64,000 nt of DNA from an uncultured Winogradskyella sp. GTDB taxonomy: Bacteria; Bacteroidota; Bacteroidia; Flavobacteriales; Flavobacteriaceae. Each line of letters opens with the position of its first letter. The stretch's first letter is position 1. The stretch is from contig CAJXLB010000001.1 in the NCBI GenBank assembly GCA_913055905.1, forward strand, positions 1 through 64,000. The letters run 5' to 3'. This document shows positions 1 to 56,635 of this stretch, in pieces. The notes below the pieces were generated by a model. It was not told the DNA's origin and made no database searches. It saw only the letters and a program-made list of their open reading frames with translations. Both the position numbers and the translations under genes were made by a program.

Positions 1-2950
1 CCTTCAAGCTCAGGTCAATCTCCGTGATCCCGTCAGGGACACCGTCGTCGCAGACCTCCAAGGGCGTCGGGACTACTGCCGTGGGGAGCGAGTCCACGAT
101 GATATCGAAGGCTACCTGGGAACTGCAGCCCGTAAGCGTATTGGTAAGCACTGCCACTATTGTCTGCGGCGTAGCCGTATTTGCGTACGGACCGGTTATC
201 TCGTTGGTCTGGGCGTCCGCATCCGCTTGGCTCGGATAGTACGATACCGCAACGTTGGCCTGGCCGTCTATGAGCTCTATGTCCTTGACCGATAGGTCGA
301 AGACCTCCTGGAGGTCGCCAGGGTTGTTCTCGTCGCAAAGGGCAATATCATCGGTCGCTACCGTCGTCGGGCTGGGGTGGACCACCAACTGAAGTGTCGT
401 GGTCGCAAAGCATCCCGTGGCCGTGTCCTCCACCCTTACGTAAACCTCCTGGGCATCCGCGACCGCATTGGTGTAAGGGTCCGGAAGGGCGTCAGCGCCC
501 GTGAGCACATCGCCGGGCGTCAGATGGTAGCTCACCACCACGCCGGCCTGGCCGCCGTCGATCTCCGGGGTCTTCGTATCAAGGGCGAACTGCGCGAAAC
601 CGTCGTTGTTGACGTCGCACACCTCAAAGTCCGTGGGCTGAGTCGCCACCGGGTTCGGTAAAACGACCAAATCAAGTGTGGTGACGTTGTAGCAGTCATC
701 ACTTATAACTGATTCCAGACGCACAAATATCGTTTGATTATTTGGTGTAACGTTAGTGTAAAGATTTGGTAAAGGTGCTACATCATTTTCTGCATCGGCC
801 TGATTTAAATGAAAAGAAATATTGACATCAGCAGGATCATTAGTGCCAAGAATTTCGGCTTCCCTATCTAACAAATTAAATTCTGTTAATCCATCTGTTA
901 TTACATCATCACATAATTCAATTGGTGTAATATTAGCATTGATATCCAACTGGCTAAACAGTAATTGAAAAGACGTGGTGTCAAAACATTCTTGTGTAGC
1001 ATCTGAAATTCTTGCCCAGATGGTTTGAGGATTTGTTGCATTGGTATAATTAATGGGTAAGGGATTTAGATTGTTTATGGCATCATCTTCTGTTAAATGA
1101 TAGGACACAATAAACTCTGTTGGATCTTGTGCGCCAAGAATATCGTCGTCATTTTCAGACAAATCAAATTCTGCTGTACCGTCTACGTCACACACTGTCA
1201 AATCTTGAGGTTGATTTGCTGTTGGACTTGATTTAAACTCCACAAAAATTGAGTCTTGAGTTTGACAAGATCCAGAGAATTCTATTTCAACAGAATAGGT
1301 GCCTGTTTGCGTTACATCGATAGTTGATCCTGTTTCTCCAGGTATCTCCACGCCATCTTGAAACCAAGTATGCGTTGCCGTTGGCAATCCAGTATCTAAA
1401 GTTACTGCTTCACCACCACATTCTGCTGTACCTGCAGCGATTGTAATGTCGTCACCCAGGTCACCACCGAGATTAAAACTACCCGCTTCAAGGAAAACTG
1501 CAGCATCAAACTGGGTGTCCTGATCATCTGCAATCACTAATTTAATTGTATAACTAGTACCAGGTGTAACAATTGATTCTGCCGTCATTGGAATTGTATA
1601 ACCTCTAAAATCAATGGGCGCATCTCCCACAGGCTGACCATTTGGATTGCCATAATAAGAATCAAAAAAATTGGGATTAACAGAAGGACATCCTGCATTA
1701 AACGCATTATCGCGTACGTTCAGTACAGAAACAACATCTGTAGTTCCAGGAACGAGTGCGAGATTCGTTGTAACACCAGTATCATTATTCGTTAAAAGAA
1801 AAGCAAAGGCATCCGTAAAAGAACACTGAAATTGACCATATTCTTCAGAGGCAAAAACGAAATCAAAACTAATTTCATTAGCTAAAGGAACAAAGTCAAA
1901 TTGAATAAATGTTGCATTATTGGTAGCACCAAGCCCTAGACCGATAGCATTTTCTAAATCGTTATCCCCTGGCCAAGCGAAAGAACCATCACTTAACGTT
2001 CCCTGCTCAGGTCCTTCAGCTCTTGAGGCATCACCTGTGGTAAGTATGATACCTTCTGCAAATTCAAAATTATTACCATCGCTAATGAAATAACCTATAC
2101 CATTGGGTTCCGTAGGGCTAAAATCAATTCCTGTTGAGGAAATAATATTAGTTACAGTAGCACACTCACTGTTTATCAAGACATCCTCTACGAGCTCTTC
2201 CGGTGTAAAACTGTCCTGATCTACAATAACTGTATCTCCAATGACAACCACGGTTATCGTTGCCACATCTGTACAAGACTGCGGATTATCATCCGTTACC
2301 GTTAAGGTAACATTAAAGGTGCCTGGATTATTAAAAATATTTGATGCTGTTGTTCCTGTTGCCGTATTGCCATCTGCAAAATCCCAATCATAAGTGGCAT
2401 TGGTGCCATCTTCTGAGAAGGTAGCACTTCCATTAAAGGTCACTTCCGTGCTCGGAAGAATTACAATTACTCCTGAGGGATTAGGTTCTGGTGTTGTGGT
2501 ATCAATTGATGCGGTTATGGTTTGACACGGTGTAGCACAACCTATAGTAGCCTCCCAGCCTGTTGTGTTACCAGTAGCACTCGAGATAAACTGAAACGTA
2601 AGGCATCCTGTAGCATTGGCAGTAGATGCCGATACGGTTCCTGGCGAAGCCGCACCAGAATAAGTTCCTATCACTGGAGCAGCAGTTGAATCGCCATCAT
2701 ATATGGTTAACACATCTAAATTTAATTGTGTTGCAAAACTTAAAAACTCGATGACCATAAATTCGCCAGCATTTTGCGGACAAATGGTGGTAACTAAATT
2801 TTCATCGTTCCCATAGTTCCCAAATTCGCCTCCAGAATCGAAGAAACGATTGGGTTGACAGCGGTTAAATGTCCCATTTTGCATCAGAATATCTTGAGCA
2901 TGGCCCTGAACACCGATAAAAATGAAAACAATAAGTATTATGTATCGCAT
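1..2950 (-). CDS. Large secreted modular protein (CUB-like, PKD, choice-of-anchor-L-like, repeats), C-terminus outside window
   Basis: The reading frame is open from an ATG at 2950 to the left edge, giving 983 residues with no stop. Residues 1-19 (MRYIILIVFIFIGVQGHAQ) are a signal peptide. A CUB-like region follows (about 20-140), then a PKD domain (about 150-235, with YDWDFADG), then a choice-of-anchor-L-like region (about 250-480, with FDFVFASEEYGQF), then an Ig-like stretch and modules of about 95 residues that begin near residue 577. This layout is typical of very large Bacteroidota adhesins secreted by the type IX system, so a C-terminal sorting domain is expected beyond the edge (inference). 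Codon use and GC change abruptly near base 662, where the last modules become GC-rich. The frame is intact across that switch. The ligand is unknown. Confidence 0.85.
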   Translation of the reverse strand, partial: MRYIILIVFIFIGVQGHAQDILMQNGTFNRCQPNRFFDSGGEFGNYGNDENLVTTICPQNAGEFMVIEFLSFATQLNLDVLTIYDGDSTAAPVIGTYSGAASPGTVSASTANATGCLTFQFISSATGNTTGWEATIGCATPCQTITASIDTTTPEPNPSGVIVILPSTEVTFNGSATFSEDGTNATYDWDFADGNTATGTTASNIFNNPGTFNVTLTVTDDNPQSCTDVATITVVVIGDTVIVDQDSFTPEELVEDVLINSECATVTNIISSTGIDFSPTEPNGIGYFISDGNNFEFAEGIILTTGDASRAEGPEQGTLSDGSFAWPGDNDLENAIGLGLGATNNATFIQFDFVPLANEISFDFVFASEEYGQFQCSFTDAFAFLLTNNDTGVTTNLALVPGTTDVVSVLNVRDNAFNAGCPSVNPNFFDSYYGNPNGQPVGDAPIDFRGYTIPMTAESIVTPGTSYTIKLVIADDQDTQFDAAVFLEAGSFNLGGDLGDDITIAAGTAECGGEAVTLDTGLPTATHTWFQDGVEIPGETGSTIDVTQTGTYSVEIEFSGSCQTQDSIFVEFKSSPTANQPQDLTVCDVDGTAEFDLSENDDDILGAQDPTEFIVSYHLTEDDAINNLNPLPINYTNATNPQTIWARISDATQECFDTTSFQLLFSQLDINANITPIELCDDVITDGLTEFNLLDREAEILGTNDPADVNISFHLNQADAENDVAPLPNLYTNVTPNNQTIFVRLESVISDDCYNVTTLDLVVLPNPVATQPTDFEVCDVNNDGFAQFALDTKTPEIDGGQAGVVVSYHLTPGDVLTGADALPDPYTNAVADAQEVYVRVEDTATGCFATTTLQLVVHPSPTTVATDDIALCDENNPGDLQEVFDLSVKDIELIDGQANVAVSYYPSQADADAQTNEITGPYANTATPQTIVAVLTNTLTGCSSQVAFDIIVDSLPTAVVPTPLEVCDDGVPDGITEIDLSLK
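2..1225 (-). repeat. Coding repeats, about 95 residues each, five starts visible
   Basis: Within the surface protein, modules recur with a Cys-Asp at the start (codons at 1190, 911, 617, 335 and 50), spaced 93, 98, 94 and 95 residues. Each carries a pattern like CD-x-DG-x-EF-L, then VSYHL with DA, then YTN with Q, then a Cys followed by a T-rich strand and a Pro linker. The first two modules are AT-rich in codon use and the last three are GC-rich, although the protein pattern is the same. Confidence 0.85.
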
Positions 2951-52651: not shown

Positions 52652-52689
52652 TAAAAAAAAGAGCGGTTAATTCACCGCTCTTTTTTTTT
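52652..52689. terminator. Bidirectional terminator between SPOR gene and infB
   Basis: GAGCGGT (52661-52667) and ACCGCTC (52674-52680) form a 7-bp stem with a 6-base loop, flanked by eight or more A's on the left and nine T's on the right. It serves both converging genes, and the T-run touches the infB stop codon. Confidence 0.92.
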
Positions 52690-55330
52690 ACTTAAGTTTC
52701 TTCTTCACTTCCACTTCTTGGAAGGCCTCTATAACATCACCTTCTTTGATATCATTGTAGCCTTTTATCTGCATACCACAATCATACCCTTTGGAGACTT
52801 CTTTTACATCATCCTTAAACCTCTTGAGGGAAGCCAATTCACCCGTGAATACTACGACACCATCGCGTATAATTCGTACGCCTGAATTTCTGTAGATCTT
52901 ACCGTTGGTAACCATACATCCTGCAATAGTTCCCACTTTAGAAATCTTAAAGGTCTCTCTAATTTCTGCTGTACCAGTGACCTCTTCCTTAACTTCTGGG
53001 GACAACATACCTTCCATAGCATCTTTAAGATCGTTGATGGCATCATAAATAATGGAGTATGTTCTGATGTCTATTTCCTCTTTATCAGCAATATCCCTAG
53101 CATTACCTACTGGTCTTACATTAAAGCCAACTATAATGGCGTCTGATGCTGAAGCCAGCAATACATCACTTTCTGTAATGGCACCTACACCCTTATGGAT
53201 GATATTGACCTGAATTTCTTCAGTTGATAATTTTTGGAAGGAATCTGTTAAGGCCTCAACAGAACCATCAACATCACCTTTAAGGATGATATTCAACTCT
53301 TGGAAATCACCTAAAGCAATTCGTCTTCCTATTTCATCAAGCGTAATATGGCGTTGTGTTCTTACCGATTGTTCTCGTTGTAATTGTGTACGCTTGCTAG
53401 CAATTTGCTTGGCTTCGCGTTCATCTTCAAAAACATTGAACTTATCACCTGCTTGTGGCGCACCGTCCAGTCCCAATATAGAAACTGGTGTCGATGGCCC
53501 TGCTTCCTTAACTTCATTGCCACGTTCATCTTGCATGGCTTTAACCTTTCCGCTGTGCTTTCCTGCAAGGACGTAATCTCCAACTCTTAGGGTTCCGGCC
53601 TGCACTAATACGGTAGAAACATAACCTCTACCCTTATCCAAATAAGCTTCGACCACGGTACCATGCGCTGGTTTATTAGGGTTGGCTTTAAGCTCTAACA
53701 GCTCAGCCTCTAACAATACCTTTTCCAAAAGTTCCTTAACACCAGTACCGAATTTGGCGGAAATGTCGTGGGATTGAATTTTTCCTCCCCAATCCTCAAC
53801 CAATAAGTTCATATTGGCGAGGCCTTCTTTCACCTTATCTGGGTTAGCATCTGGTTTATCAATTTTATTAATGGCAAACACTATTGGAACACCTGCAGCC
53901 TGAGCATGTGAAATAGCTTCTTTGGTTTGAGGCATTATAGCATCATCTGCAGCCACAACAATAATAGCGATATCTGTAACTTGAGCTCCACGTGCACGCA
54001 TTGCGGTAAACGCCTCGTGACCTGGAGTATCTAAAAATGCGATTTTTTGACCGTTGGATAGTTCTACACCATAGGCTCCGATATGCTGGGTTATACCACC
54101 AGATTCACCTGCAATAACATTTTCTTCACGAATGTAATCCAACAACGACGTTTTACCGTGGTCAACGTGACCCATAACCGTTACAATTGGTGCTCTTGGC
54201 ACTAGGTCCTCAGGTCTATCTTCAGTTTCTTCTATGGCCTCTTCTATGTCCGCTGTGACAAATTCGACCTCATAACCAAACTCATCTGCAACGATGGAAA
54301 GTGTCTCAGCATCGAGACGCTGGTTCATAGTTACCATCATTCCCAATGACATACATGCCGAAATAACTTCTGTAACACCTACATTCATCATAGTTGCCAC
54401 CTCGCTTACGGTAACAAATTCAGTAACTTTTAGAATTTTACTTTCTGCTGCTTCTGCTTGTAGCTCTTTCTCTGACTTTTCTTTATGTTGGTCGCGTTTT
54501 TCTCTTCTATACTTGGCGCCTTTGCCTTTACTGGATTTTCCTTGAAGTTTTTCAAGCGTTTCACGTATCTGCTTCTGCACCTCTTCTTCACTTGGCTCCT
54601 CTTTTACCACTTTTGACCTAGAACGCCCTTTACCACGTTGTTTTCTATTATCAAAATTAGATTTGTTGTCGCCTCCAGCTTTACTTATTCTTCTGCGCTT
54701 ACGCTTGCTACCGGATTTTTCTTCCGAGCTCTTTTCAGCCTTTTTCTTTTTAGGCTTATTAAATTTGGTAAGGTCTATTTTTTCGCCTGTCGCTGTTGGT
54801 CCAGATAGTTTCTGATACTGCGTTTTTAATTTTTCCTCTGGCGCTTCCTTAACCTCTGGCTCTTGGGTTTCTTCTTTCTTATCTTCTTTTTTAGCTTCGA
54901 CCTTTTTCTTTTTTTCTGCTTTTGGCTTAGCTGGCTCCTTCGGTGCCTCAGTCTTTTCCTCCTCTTCTGCTTTGGCCTTAGGCTTATCCAAGTCTATTTT
55001 ACCAACTTTCTTAGGGCCACTAAGATCGGCCTTTGCTTTTACTACAGGTTCTTTTGCAGCCTCTTTCTTTTGCTTTTCTTCAATTTCACGTTCTCTCTGT
55101 TCACGGAGCCTCTCTTTTTCTTTCATTTTGGCCTCGCTCACTTCTTGGGCTTTTTCACGCTTGGTAGCATCAGTCTGAAATTCATCTGCTAACGTGTCAT
55201 ATACCTCTTGTGAAATTTTTGTATTTGGGCTTTTCTCAATTTCAATACCCTTGGATTCCAAAAAATCCACTGCTCGGTCCAATGAAATATTTAACTCCCT
55301 TAATACTTTATTTATTCTAATTTGAGCCAT
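52688..55330 (-). CDS. infB: Translation initiation factor IF-2
   Basis: IF-2 is the GTPase that brings fMet-tRNA to the 30S subunit. The 880 residues have an N-terminal IF2_N part ([20 protein letters not shown]), then about 230 residues rich in Lys, Glu and Pro, then a second N-type domain ([16 protein letters not shown]) and the G domain with GHVDHGKT (about 383-392), DTPGHEAF and [12 protein letters not shown]. The C-terminal domains end at EVEVKKKLK. It is the third gene of the rimP-nusA-infB operon. Confidence 0.98.
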
Positions 55331-55365
55331 AAATTGCCTGTAATATAAAACTTATAATTATTTTA

Positions 55366-55396
55366 TCAATTCAACTTTGTTAAACATTTGAATTGA
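55366..55396. repeat. Inverted repeat between nusA and infB
   Basis: TCAATTCAA (55366-55374) pairs perfectly with TTGAATTGA (55388-55396) across a 13-base loop in the nusA-infB gap. It is A+T-rich and has no clear U-run, so it may be a processing or weak pausing site. Confidence 0.4.
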
Positions 55397-55402
55397 CTGC
55401 TG

Positions 55403-56635
55403 TTATTCTTCAAATTCTTCTTTTAGAATCTTAATCACTTCGATAATGGTTTCTTCCTCTAAGTCGGTACGTTTTACCAAATCATCGATGTCTAATTCTA
55501 GAATACTTTTTGCTGTATCTAAACCTACCTTGCTAAATTCGTCTATAATCCAACCGTCGATTTCATCGCTAAACTCGGATAGTTCAACGTCTTCTTCTGC
55601 GCCTTCCCTAAACACGTCTATTTCAAAACCTGTTAATTGACCTGCCAACCTTATGTTGTGGCCTCCTCTACCAATAGCTTTTGAAACTTCTTCGGGCTTC
55701 AAAAGGACTTCGGCGCGATTATTTTCCTCATCTAGCTTTAAAGACGTAACACGTGCCGGACTCAATGCCCTAGTTACAAACAACTGAATGTTATTGGTGT
55801 AATTTATCACGTCTATATTTTCATTTCCTAACTCTCTCACAATGCCATGAATCCTTGATCCTTTCATACCAACACAAGCACCAACGGGATCAATTCTATC
55901 GTCATAAGAATCTACGGCAACCTTAGCTTTTTCACCAGGAATTCTAACCACTTTTTTCACAGTAATGAGCCCATCGAAAACCTCTGGTATTTCCTGCTCA
56001 AACAATTTCTCCAAAAATACGGGAGATGTCCTGGACATGATTATAGCTGGTTTGCTGCCTTTAAGCTCTACACTTTCTATGATTCCGCGTACATTTTCAC
56101 CTTTTCTAAAGAAGTCTGACGGAATCTGCTTTTCCTTTGGAAGTATGATTTCATTGCCATCGTCATCAAGTAATATGATGGCTCTGTGTCTAATATGATG
56201 TACTTCTGCTGTATAGATTTCGCCTTCTAGTTCTTTGAATTGCTTGTATATATTGGTGTTGTCATGCTCATGGATTTTAGCAATGAGGTTTTGCCTTAGT
56301 GCCAAAATTGAGCGTCTTCCCAAATCTACGAGTTTTACTTCTTCTGCAACGTCCTCACCGACTTCAAAATCGGGCTCAATTTTTTGAGCCTCTGACAATT
56401 CAATTTCTTGATTAGGGTCTTCTACTTCTCCATCTGCCACAACGACACGGTTTCTCCAAATTTCCAAGTCTCCTTTATCTGGATTGATAATAATATCAAA
56501 ATTATCGTCATCGCCATATTTCTTTTTTAAGGCGCTGCGCAATACATCTTCTAGAATCGCCATTAGCGTTACCCTATCAATTAACTTATCATCTTTAAAT
56601 TCTGAAAATGATTCTATTAACGCTACATTTTCCAT
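55403..56635 (-). CDS. nusA: Transcription termination/antitermination factor NusA
   Basis: NusA binds RNA polymerase and nascent RNA to control pausing and termination. The 410 residues contain the N-terminal polymerase-binding domain (about 1-130), an S1 domain (about 135-200), and two KH domains (AKVAVDSYDDRIDPVGACVG with GMKGSRIHGIVREL, and AIGRGGHNIRLAGQLTGF), plus a short acidic tail that resembles a helix-hairpin-helix stretch (LELDIDDLVKRTDLEEETII). It lacks the long acidic repeats of E. coli NusA, as is normal outside Proteobacteria. Confidence 0.97.
   Translation of the reverse strand: MENVALIESFSEFKDDKLIDRVTLMAILEDVLRSALKKKYGDDDNFDIIINPDKGDLEIWRNRVVVADGEVEDPNQEIELSEAQKIEPDFEVGEDVAEEVKLVDLGRRSILALRQNLIAKIHEHDNTNIYKQFKELEGEIYTAEVHHIRHRAIILLDDDGNEIILPKEKQIPSDFFRKGENVRGIIESVELKGSKPAIIMSRTSPVFLEKLFEQEIPEVFDGLITVKKVVRIPGEKAKVAVDSYDDRIDPVGACVGMKGSRIHGIVRELGNENIDVINYTNNIQLFVTRALSPARVTSLKLDEENNRAEVLLKPEEVSKAIGRGGHNIRLAGQLTGFEIDVFREGAEEDVELSEFSDEIDGWIIDEFSKVGLDTAKSILELDIDDLVKRTDLEEETIIEVIKILKEEFEE

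Follow-up and report, generated by a model that had tools for sequence, protein, structure and literature searches.

An abrupt GC switch inside a giant surface-protein gene of Winogradskyella: a shared stalk as a candidate for GC-biased gene conversion

Introduction

What can make a single bacterial reading frame change its base composition abruptly? The question is raised by the first gene of the window, i.e. the stretch of 64,000 nucleotides analysed here (contig CAJXLB010000001.1, positions 1 to 64,000) from an uncultured Winogradskyella sp. An earlier note on this DNA had attributed the switch to modules swapped in from a GC-rich relative by recombination between repeats, with a chimeric assembly join at the repeat as the main alternative. 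A further candidate is GC-biased gene conversion, which was proposed for bacteria by Lassalle et al. 2015 on the grounds that GC is higher in recombining stretches than elsewhere in the genome, independently of codon optimality (PMC4450053), and which is also described for primate X-chromosome palindromes (PMC8981503). Its role in shaping bacterial GC content is debated (PMC4450053, PMC6867656). These statements follow extracts of the three papers.

Results

The switch lies within one open frame

The gene in question encodes a head followed by the first modules of a repetitive stalk and runs off the contig (Table 1). In 100-base windows its GC content amounts to 54-69% within bases 1-650 and to 29-49% within bases 651-1500. 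Resolved by codon position (1/2/3), the GC content is 50/43/26% for residues 1-762 and 64/43/76% for residues 763-983; along the gene the first and, above all, the third position (GC3) thus rise while the second remains constant. For comparison, the 29 other ORFs of the window with at least 250 aa have a mean GC3 of 35.2 (sd 3.1, maximum 43). The abrupt switch that had been noted before is therefore real, the frame is unbroken across it, as had likewise been claimed, and Cys-Asp modules are present on either side. Its position had been given as about base 662. A sharp edge does lie close by; the maximum-likelihood change point, however, falls after codon 751 (base ~697; log-likelihood gain 94), about 35 bases off.

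Table 1. Features at the start of the window (minus, minus strand).
Feature	Position	Strand	Basis
Stretch common to the start of contig C1 and the end of contig C5	1..88		86/88 bases match; bases 1-77 exact
Truncated giant surface-protein gene	2..2950	minus	ATG at 2950, frame open to base 2; first 983 aa
GC-rich stalk modules, GC3 ~76%	2..697	minus	change point after codon 751 and GC by codon position
Choice-of-anchor L domain, residues 270-492	1475..2143	minus	NCBIfam NF038133, E 7.5e-46
PKD domain, residues 154-234	2249..2491	minus	Pfam PF18911, E 4e-17
CUB domain, residues 65-135	2546..2758	minus	Pfam PF00431, E 1.7e-4

Judged by similarity, the head of the window gene appears to belong to the P type, one of the head types found in the genus: its nearest heads are those of G004, G040, G032P and G016P, and the head tree places it among the P-type rows. 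For stalk residues 763-983 a fold was predicted with a mean pLDDT of 92.8. Full-length congener genes end in the domain of type IX secretion type B surface proteins (TIGR04131), and this sorting domain was found in the congener stalk contig L139 as well as in L129 and L130; the C-terminus of the window gene itself lies beyond the contig end. In the stalk contig of the nearest relative (L139, 4,342 bases) the type B sorting domain is followed by a stop codon at the contig end; the window gene therefore probably lacks a stalk of about 1,450 residues.

Elsewhere in the window, a Lys/Glu-rich ORF of 880 aa (52688-55330, minus strand), which by eye resembles translation initiation factor IF-2 and is ordinary, carries most of the 2-kb segment with the strongest base skew (54001-56000).

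The contig ends at the entrance to a collapsed stalk

The window begins with the first base of contig C1 in a 13-contig assembly of a 2.95 Mb genome. The sole other DNA match within this assembly is on C5, a contig of 157,823 bases which stops at the stretch common with C1 and ends within a second gene whose head is of another type (T) than the P-like head of the window gene. Just 77-88 bases of common stalk are assembled in this genome; for the GC-rich bases 89-664 no second copy was found in the assembly. Among its 26 contig ends, six pairs have 77 bases in common, one pair 78 and one 92, and the sharing of 77 bases is the mark of the assembly k-mer (k=77).

The same pattern recurs in other assemblies. 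Twelve with at least two stalk-gene loci were compared, L041/L049, L052/L053 and L064/L068 (two loci each) being left out. All twelve contain exact common stretches of at least 77 bases, and in nine of them the contigs of both genes stop on the common stretch or at most one base from it. In PL24a and Subsaximicrobium one common stretch misses a locus end by 100 or 614 bases, and the loci of Aurantibacter have 2,906 bases in common. W. ouciana, isolate 408-3Z and Psychroserpens 2-804-G each possess a separate short stalk contig beginning on the same 77-mer; for W. ouciana the record titles give a coverage of 319.6 for this short contig versus 213.3 and 196.9. The shared 77-mer pattern across assemblies, together with the coverage of the short contig, shows that at base 1 the contig enters a shared stalk, which the assembler collapsed; this is why the contig stops there.

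Three further contig ends of the same genome, L090 (C12), L088 (C10) and L086 (C8), also lie in GC-rich surface-protein repeat arrays (HYR_4C, DUF7507), the GC3 of which reaches up to 46-71% and falls to 17-31% in adjoining modules.

Twin genes share a stalk that evolves in concert

All 68 genomes compared within the genus, among them the one studied here, contain modules homologous to the stalk. In seven congeners (G016, G026, G029, G031, G032, G033 and G035) both twin genes could be read, with lengths of 2,061-2,475 aa; both twins of G026 run off contig starts ahead of the stop codon. Within a genome the heads of the twins are 35-81% identical at the DNA level, their stalks mostly 97-100%, with some windows at 90-96%. 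This near-identity extends to the stop codon in six of the seven pairs, and the sequence past it differs between the twins in the six pairs reaching it, those of G033 sharing about 14 bases. Between G035 and G033 the stalks are 65-88% identical and heads of the same type mostly 74-86%. Accordingly, stalk copies within one genome are more alike than orthologues of different species, and the flanks, i.e. the heads and the bases past the stop codon, are not homogenised.

In the stalk tree the two copies of each genome cluster in 7/7 pairs; in the head tree clustering is by type, G032T and G029T representing a third head kind. Because heads cluster by type and stalks by genome, concerted evolution of the shared stalk, presumably by gene conversion, is well supported in the congeners, and it is strongly implied for the genome from which the window stems. 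The third head kind sits on the second twin of G029 and G032 (L132, L123), as if heads were exchangeable on a common stalk.

An ORF of 336-338 aa follows the P-type genes at a distance of 6-8 bases in all eight cases examined, and the one such ORF tested is a PorP/SprF-family protein. In the six complete pairs, no ORF of this kind adjoins the T-type gene. Use of one export partner by both twins could explain why the gene ends are kept alike. The window protein itself is likely a long surface filament or adhesin, its family presenting different heads on a common stalk.

Raised GC follows the stalk across relatives

In 10/10 genomes the last 1,250 codons have a GC3 of 25-64 versus 16-22 in the first 600 codons, and in congeners the raised third-position GC is found in both stalk copies. 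A change-point scan of 32 rows (two of which represent the same gene, with G025s comprising the stalk only) revealed a rise in 31, Psychroserpens 14-3Z being the exception. In 12 of the 31 other rows the position of the change corresponds to window residues 734-795; in 19 it lies elsewhere or has no counterpart, as module number and shared boundary vary and the correspondence between modules can be ambiguous. The short stalk contigs of four drafts show a GC3 of 67-75 (L054), 77-79 (L056), 41-43 (L051) and 28-37 (L048), with 15-22 in the heads; that of the G025 stalk contig is 73%. In a number of loci, e.g. L042, L045 and L061, the stretch homologous to the query is not GC-raised. Raised silent-site GC is thus confined to the converting part in 10/10 genomes and, in the survey described below, in 33/36 ORFs, with the limits that some families hardly rise and that GC-rich bases also occur outside the present identical tract. 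An example of the latter is the complete G033 genome, in which part of the P gene, too, is GC-rich and lacks a second copy. Such single-copy GC-rich parts, among them bases 89-664 of the window, may represent a former converting tract.

These data bear directly on the suspicion that two unrelated pieces were joined by the assembler near base 662-697. A contig end within a repeat only ~660-700 bases away lends this some initial appeal; the frame is unbroken, however, a similar rise occurs within single ORFs of the one-contig genomes G014, G029, G032, G033 and G035, and it is found at the homologous module in those 12 of 31 other rows. A chimeric join, which the earlier note had kept as its main alternative, is hence scarcely conceivable, and the GC switch is no artefact.

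A 4.8-kb contig titled as a Gammaproteobacteria MAG (L055) carries flavobacterial stalk modules of ~50-56% GC and is possibly a collapsed stalk misbinned by composition.

Import of GC-rich modules or continuing gain of GC

The GC-rich modules could have been acquired by recombination from a GC-rich relative and later been copied between the twins, which would conform to the sharp edge and to the GC-rich third positions. One scan of genome contigs, reaching close relatives only, yielded 43 loci (40 with flavobacterial titles, two Bacteroidia and one Gammaproteobacteria) with a best-segment identity of at most 59%, and no GC-rich donor was found in it. The best protein match within the genus is a congener at 77%. 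The presence of homologous modules in every genome of the genus, as well as a GC level that is specific to the lineage, argues further against acquisition from outside.

Substitution patterns were compared for stalk and head. The equilibrium GC calculated by parsimony is 0.62-0.70 for the stalk and 0.17-0.28 for the head in G029/G014, 0.31-0.46 and 0.15-0.18 in G035/G033, and 0.27-0.30 and 0.12-0.22 in G016/G031. Three-taxon likelihood is loose, two of eight runs putting the stalk below the head (0.02 vs 0.83; 0.15 vs 0.20). When branch lengths were left free, the model with 11 taxa did not reject decay from a GC-rich root (gap 1.69), a result on the side of import. Tying the branch lengths to the protein tree, by contrast, makes decay fit badly: minus lnL is 2505 or 2423 for decay to 0.13 or 0.20, 2328 for one free equilibrium and 2236 for lineage-specific equilibria (rest 0.30, G025 0.82, G014/G029 0.78; root 0.48). 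Lineage-specific GC gain therefore leads by 269 log units over decay to 0.13 and by 187 over decay to 0.20, a lead which depends on the protein tree as clock. In G025, the nearest relative, the protein branch is long (0.44, exceeded by the 0.66 of the G031 stem) and divergence at GC-neutral silent sites is strong (35-47% of same-class sites), yet its GC is the highest. A long-diverged copy that is the GC-richest is the opposite of what slow decay would produce. Moreover, stalk GC is very different between congeners.

Taken together, import is improbable, and a module from a GC-rich relative is most likely not the source of the switch. From the module swap proposed in the earlier note, the involvement of recombination at repeats is retained; the evident partner, however, is the second gene of the own genome.

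Homogenisation, raised GC and base skew

Whether raised GC goes along with homogenisation in general was surveyed in seven genomes. Large genes were hand-picked from the CHU_C and HYR hit lists together with their neighbours and divided into 240-base windows; windows of at least 92% identity were regarded as duplicated, and only ORFs with both duplicated and unique windows were counted. Duplicated windows are GC-richer than unique ones in 33 of the 36 ORFs, 15 of which are stalk genes by hand assignment so that the rows are not independent; the difference is at least 5 points in 24, and in none are they lower by 5 or more. The duplicated windows are GC-richer in 22/23 ORFs with dispersed copies and in 11/13 with tandem copies. 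In MKISTRFS arrays the rise is 3-33 points. MKNKYN (-2 to 4 points) and MKAK (-1, 2) are hardly GC-raised though homogenised, and a cluster of short shared C-termini is homogenised, yet changes by just -2 to 6 points. No significant dependence of the GC rise on homogenised length was observed.

Within the genome of the window, the HYR_4C array has a GC3 of 46-63 versus 28-31 in its first modules and the DUF7507 end one of 71 versus 17-28; related modules of the C3 genes are uniform at 33-34. A search with Pfam HYR (PF02494) gave no match in the C10 and C12 arrays, to which HYR_4C matches instead.

Both C-ending and G-ending codons are commoner in the stalk than in the head. In low-GC stalks A is commoner and T rarer at fourfold sites than in the heads (G032P, G035P, G033P and G016P; L124, L122, L129 and L125), the change in G032P being from 36 to 53 for A and from 48 to 21 for T. 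This holds within single amino acids in the three stalks looked at (G032P, G035P, G016P), where CCA accounts for 76-85% of the proline codons. Symmetric biased conversion does not predict such a pattern; selection acting on stalk codons may have a share in it. Among copy-specific twin differences of six pairs there is no clear excess of GC loss, the third-position counts being small (15:16, 17:11, 14:10, 2:1, 1:2 and 3:1).

Some of these observations speak for an account in which concerted evolution is real and the composition shift arises from selection on stalk codons, DNA or RNA, or from recombination-linked mutation, instead of biased mismatch correction. It would accommodate the increase of A-ending at the expense of T-ending codons in low-GC stalks, the strong use of CCA for proline, copy-specific changes devoid of skew and homogenised arrays devoid of a GC rise. 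It is at odds with the simultaneous increase of C- and G-ending codons and with the raised GC of unrelated repeat families, HYR_4C and DUF7507 of this genome among them; furthermore, the head on the same message is not shifted, so that expression level alone is insufficient. We deem this account possible, though rather unlikely. Expression-driven codon selection on the whole gene was also considered and is a misfit, the head of the same message being AT-rich.

Discussion

GC-biased gene conversion is, in our opinion, the best, yet unproven, cause of the GC step, with a probability of roughly 0.56. In its favour count the contig-end 77-mer common to both genes, the concerted stalks, the higher GC of stalks and of duplicated windows, the GC-rich unrelated arrays, the joint increase of C- and G-ending codons, the parsimony equilibria and the likelihoods with tied branch lengths. 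Against it count homogenised arrays with hardly any GC rise, copy-specific changes devoid of skew, the A and T pattern of low-GC stalks, GC-rich bases for which no second copy was found, the three-taxon and free-branch likelihoods, and a GC rise that does not depend significantly on homogenised length. According to the mechanism we propose, two or more paralogous giant surface proteins are set on one long repeat stalk, and the window contains the head of one of them. Ectopic homologous gene conversion between the twins would homogenise the stalk, and mismatch repair during conversion would favour G and C. Silent sites of the stalk would thereby move from ~20% GC to 25-76%, depending on the lineage, and the abrupt in-frame switch would mark the present or former edge of the converting domain. 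More far-reaching is the claim that ectopic conversion is strongly GC-biased, has driven silent stalk GC of AT-rich genomes, in several lineages independently, from ~20% to nearly 80%, and has left sharp GC edges as present or former tract limits. To this we attach slightly less than even chances; the A-up/T-down pattern lowers the odds for biased conversion.

The situation resembles the bacterial proposal of PMC4450053 insofar as recombining stretches are GC-richer. The evidence presented there, as given in the extract used, concerns differences between genes and recombination among strains, whereas here the difference lies within one frame and involves dispersed copies of one genome; the GC3 step is also far larger, and paralogs are not mentioned in that extract. 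In primate X palindromes, going by the extract of PMC8981503, there are, as here, two conversion-homogenised, nearly identical copies with raised GC, those being eukaryotic palindromes and these dispersed bacterial surface-protein genes with divergent heads. None of the literature matches listed, mainly from non-subscription journals, deals with conversion or shifts in GC for these stalk genes.

With respect to structure, the best solved match of the predicted stalk modules is the Aureispira grappling hook protein A (GhpA; 9fls, E 1.2e-6). Four more GhpA fragments are among the best ten fold matches, followed mostly by cadherin and Ig-type chains. The identity to GhpA is 13-17%, and over the query the TM-score reaches 0.38-0.47. 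When PDB sequences were searched by profile with the stalk modules, no match was obtained at E 0.1, and the resemblance seen with the predicted model is one of fold only, homology to GhpA not being found in sequence.

The findings imply two warnings: a GC step within a gene is no proof of horizontal transfer, and it is precisely such stalks that short-read assemblies break at and lose. Beyond this, each such frame combines a converting with a non-converting part, both served by one promoter in one genome, i.e. a built-in controlled comparison which is repeated across the genus at different intensities. If conversion pushes the stalk towards G and C, this provides a natural test of a disputed idea on bacterial genome GC and, should the strong GC bias be true, such genes would be built-in recorders of conversion.
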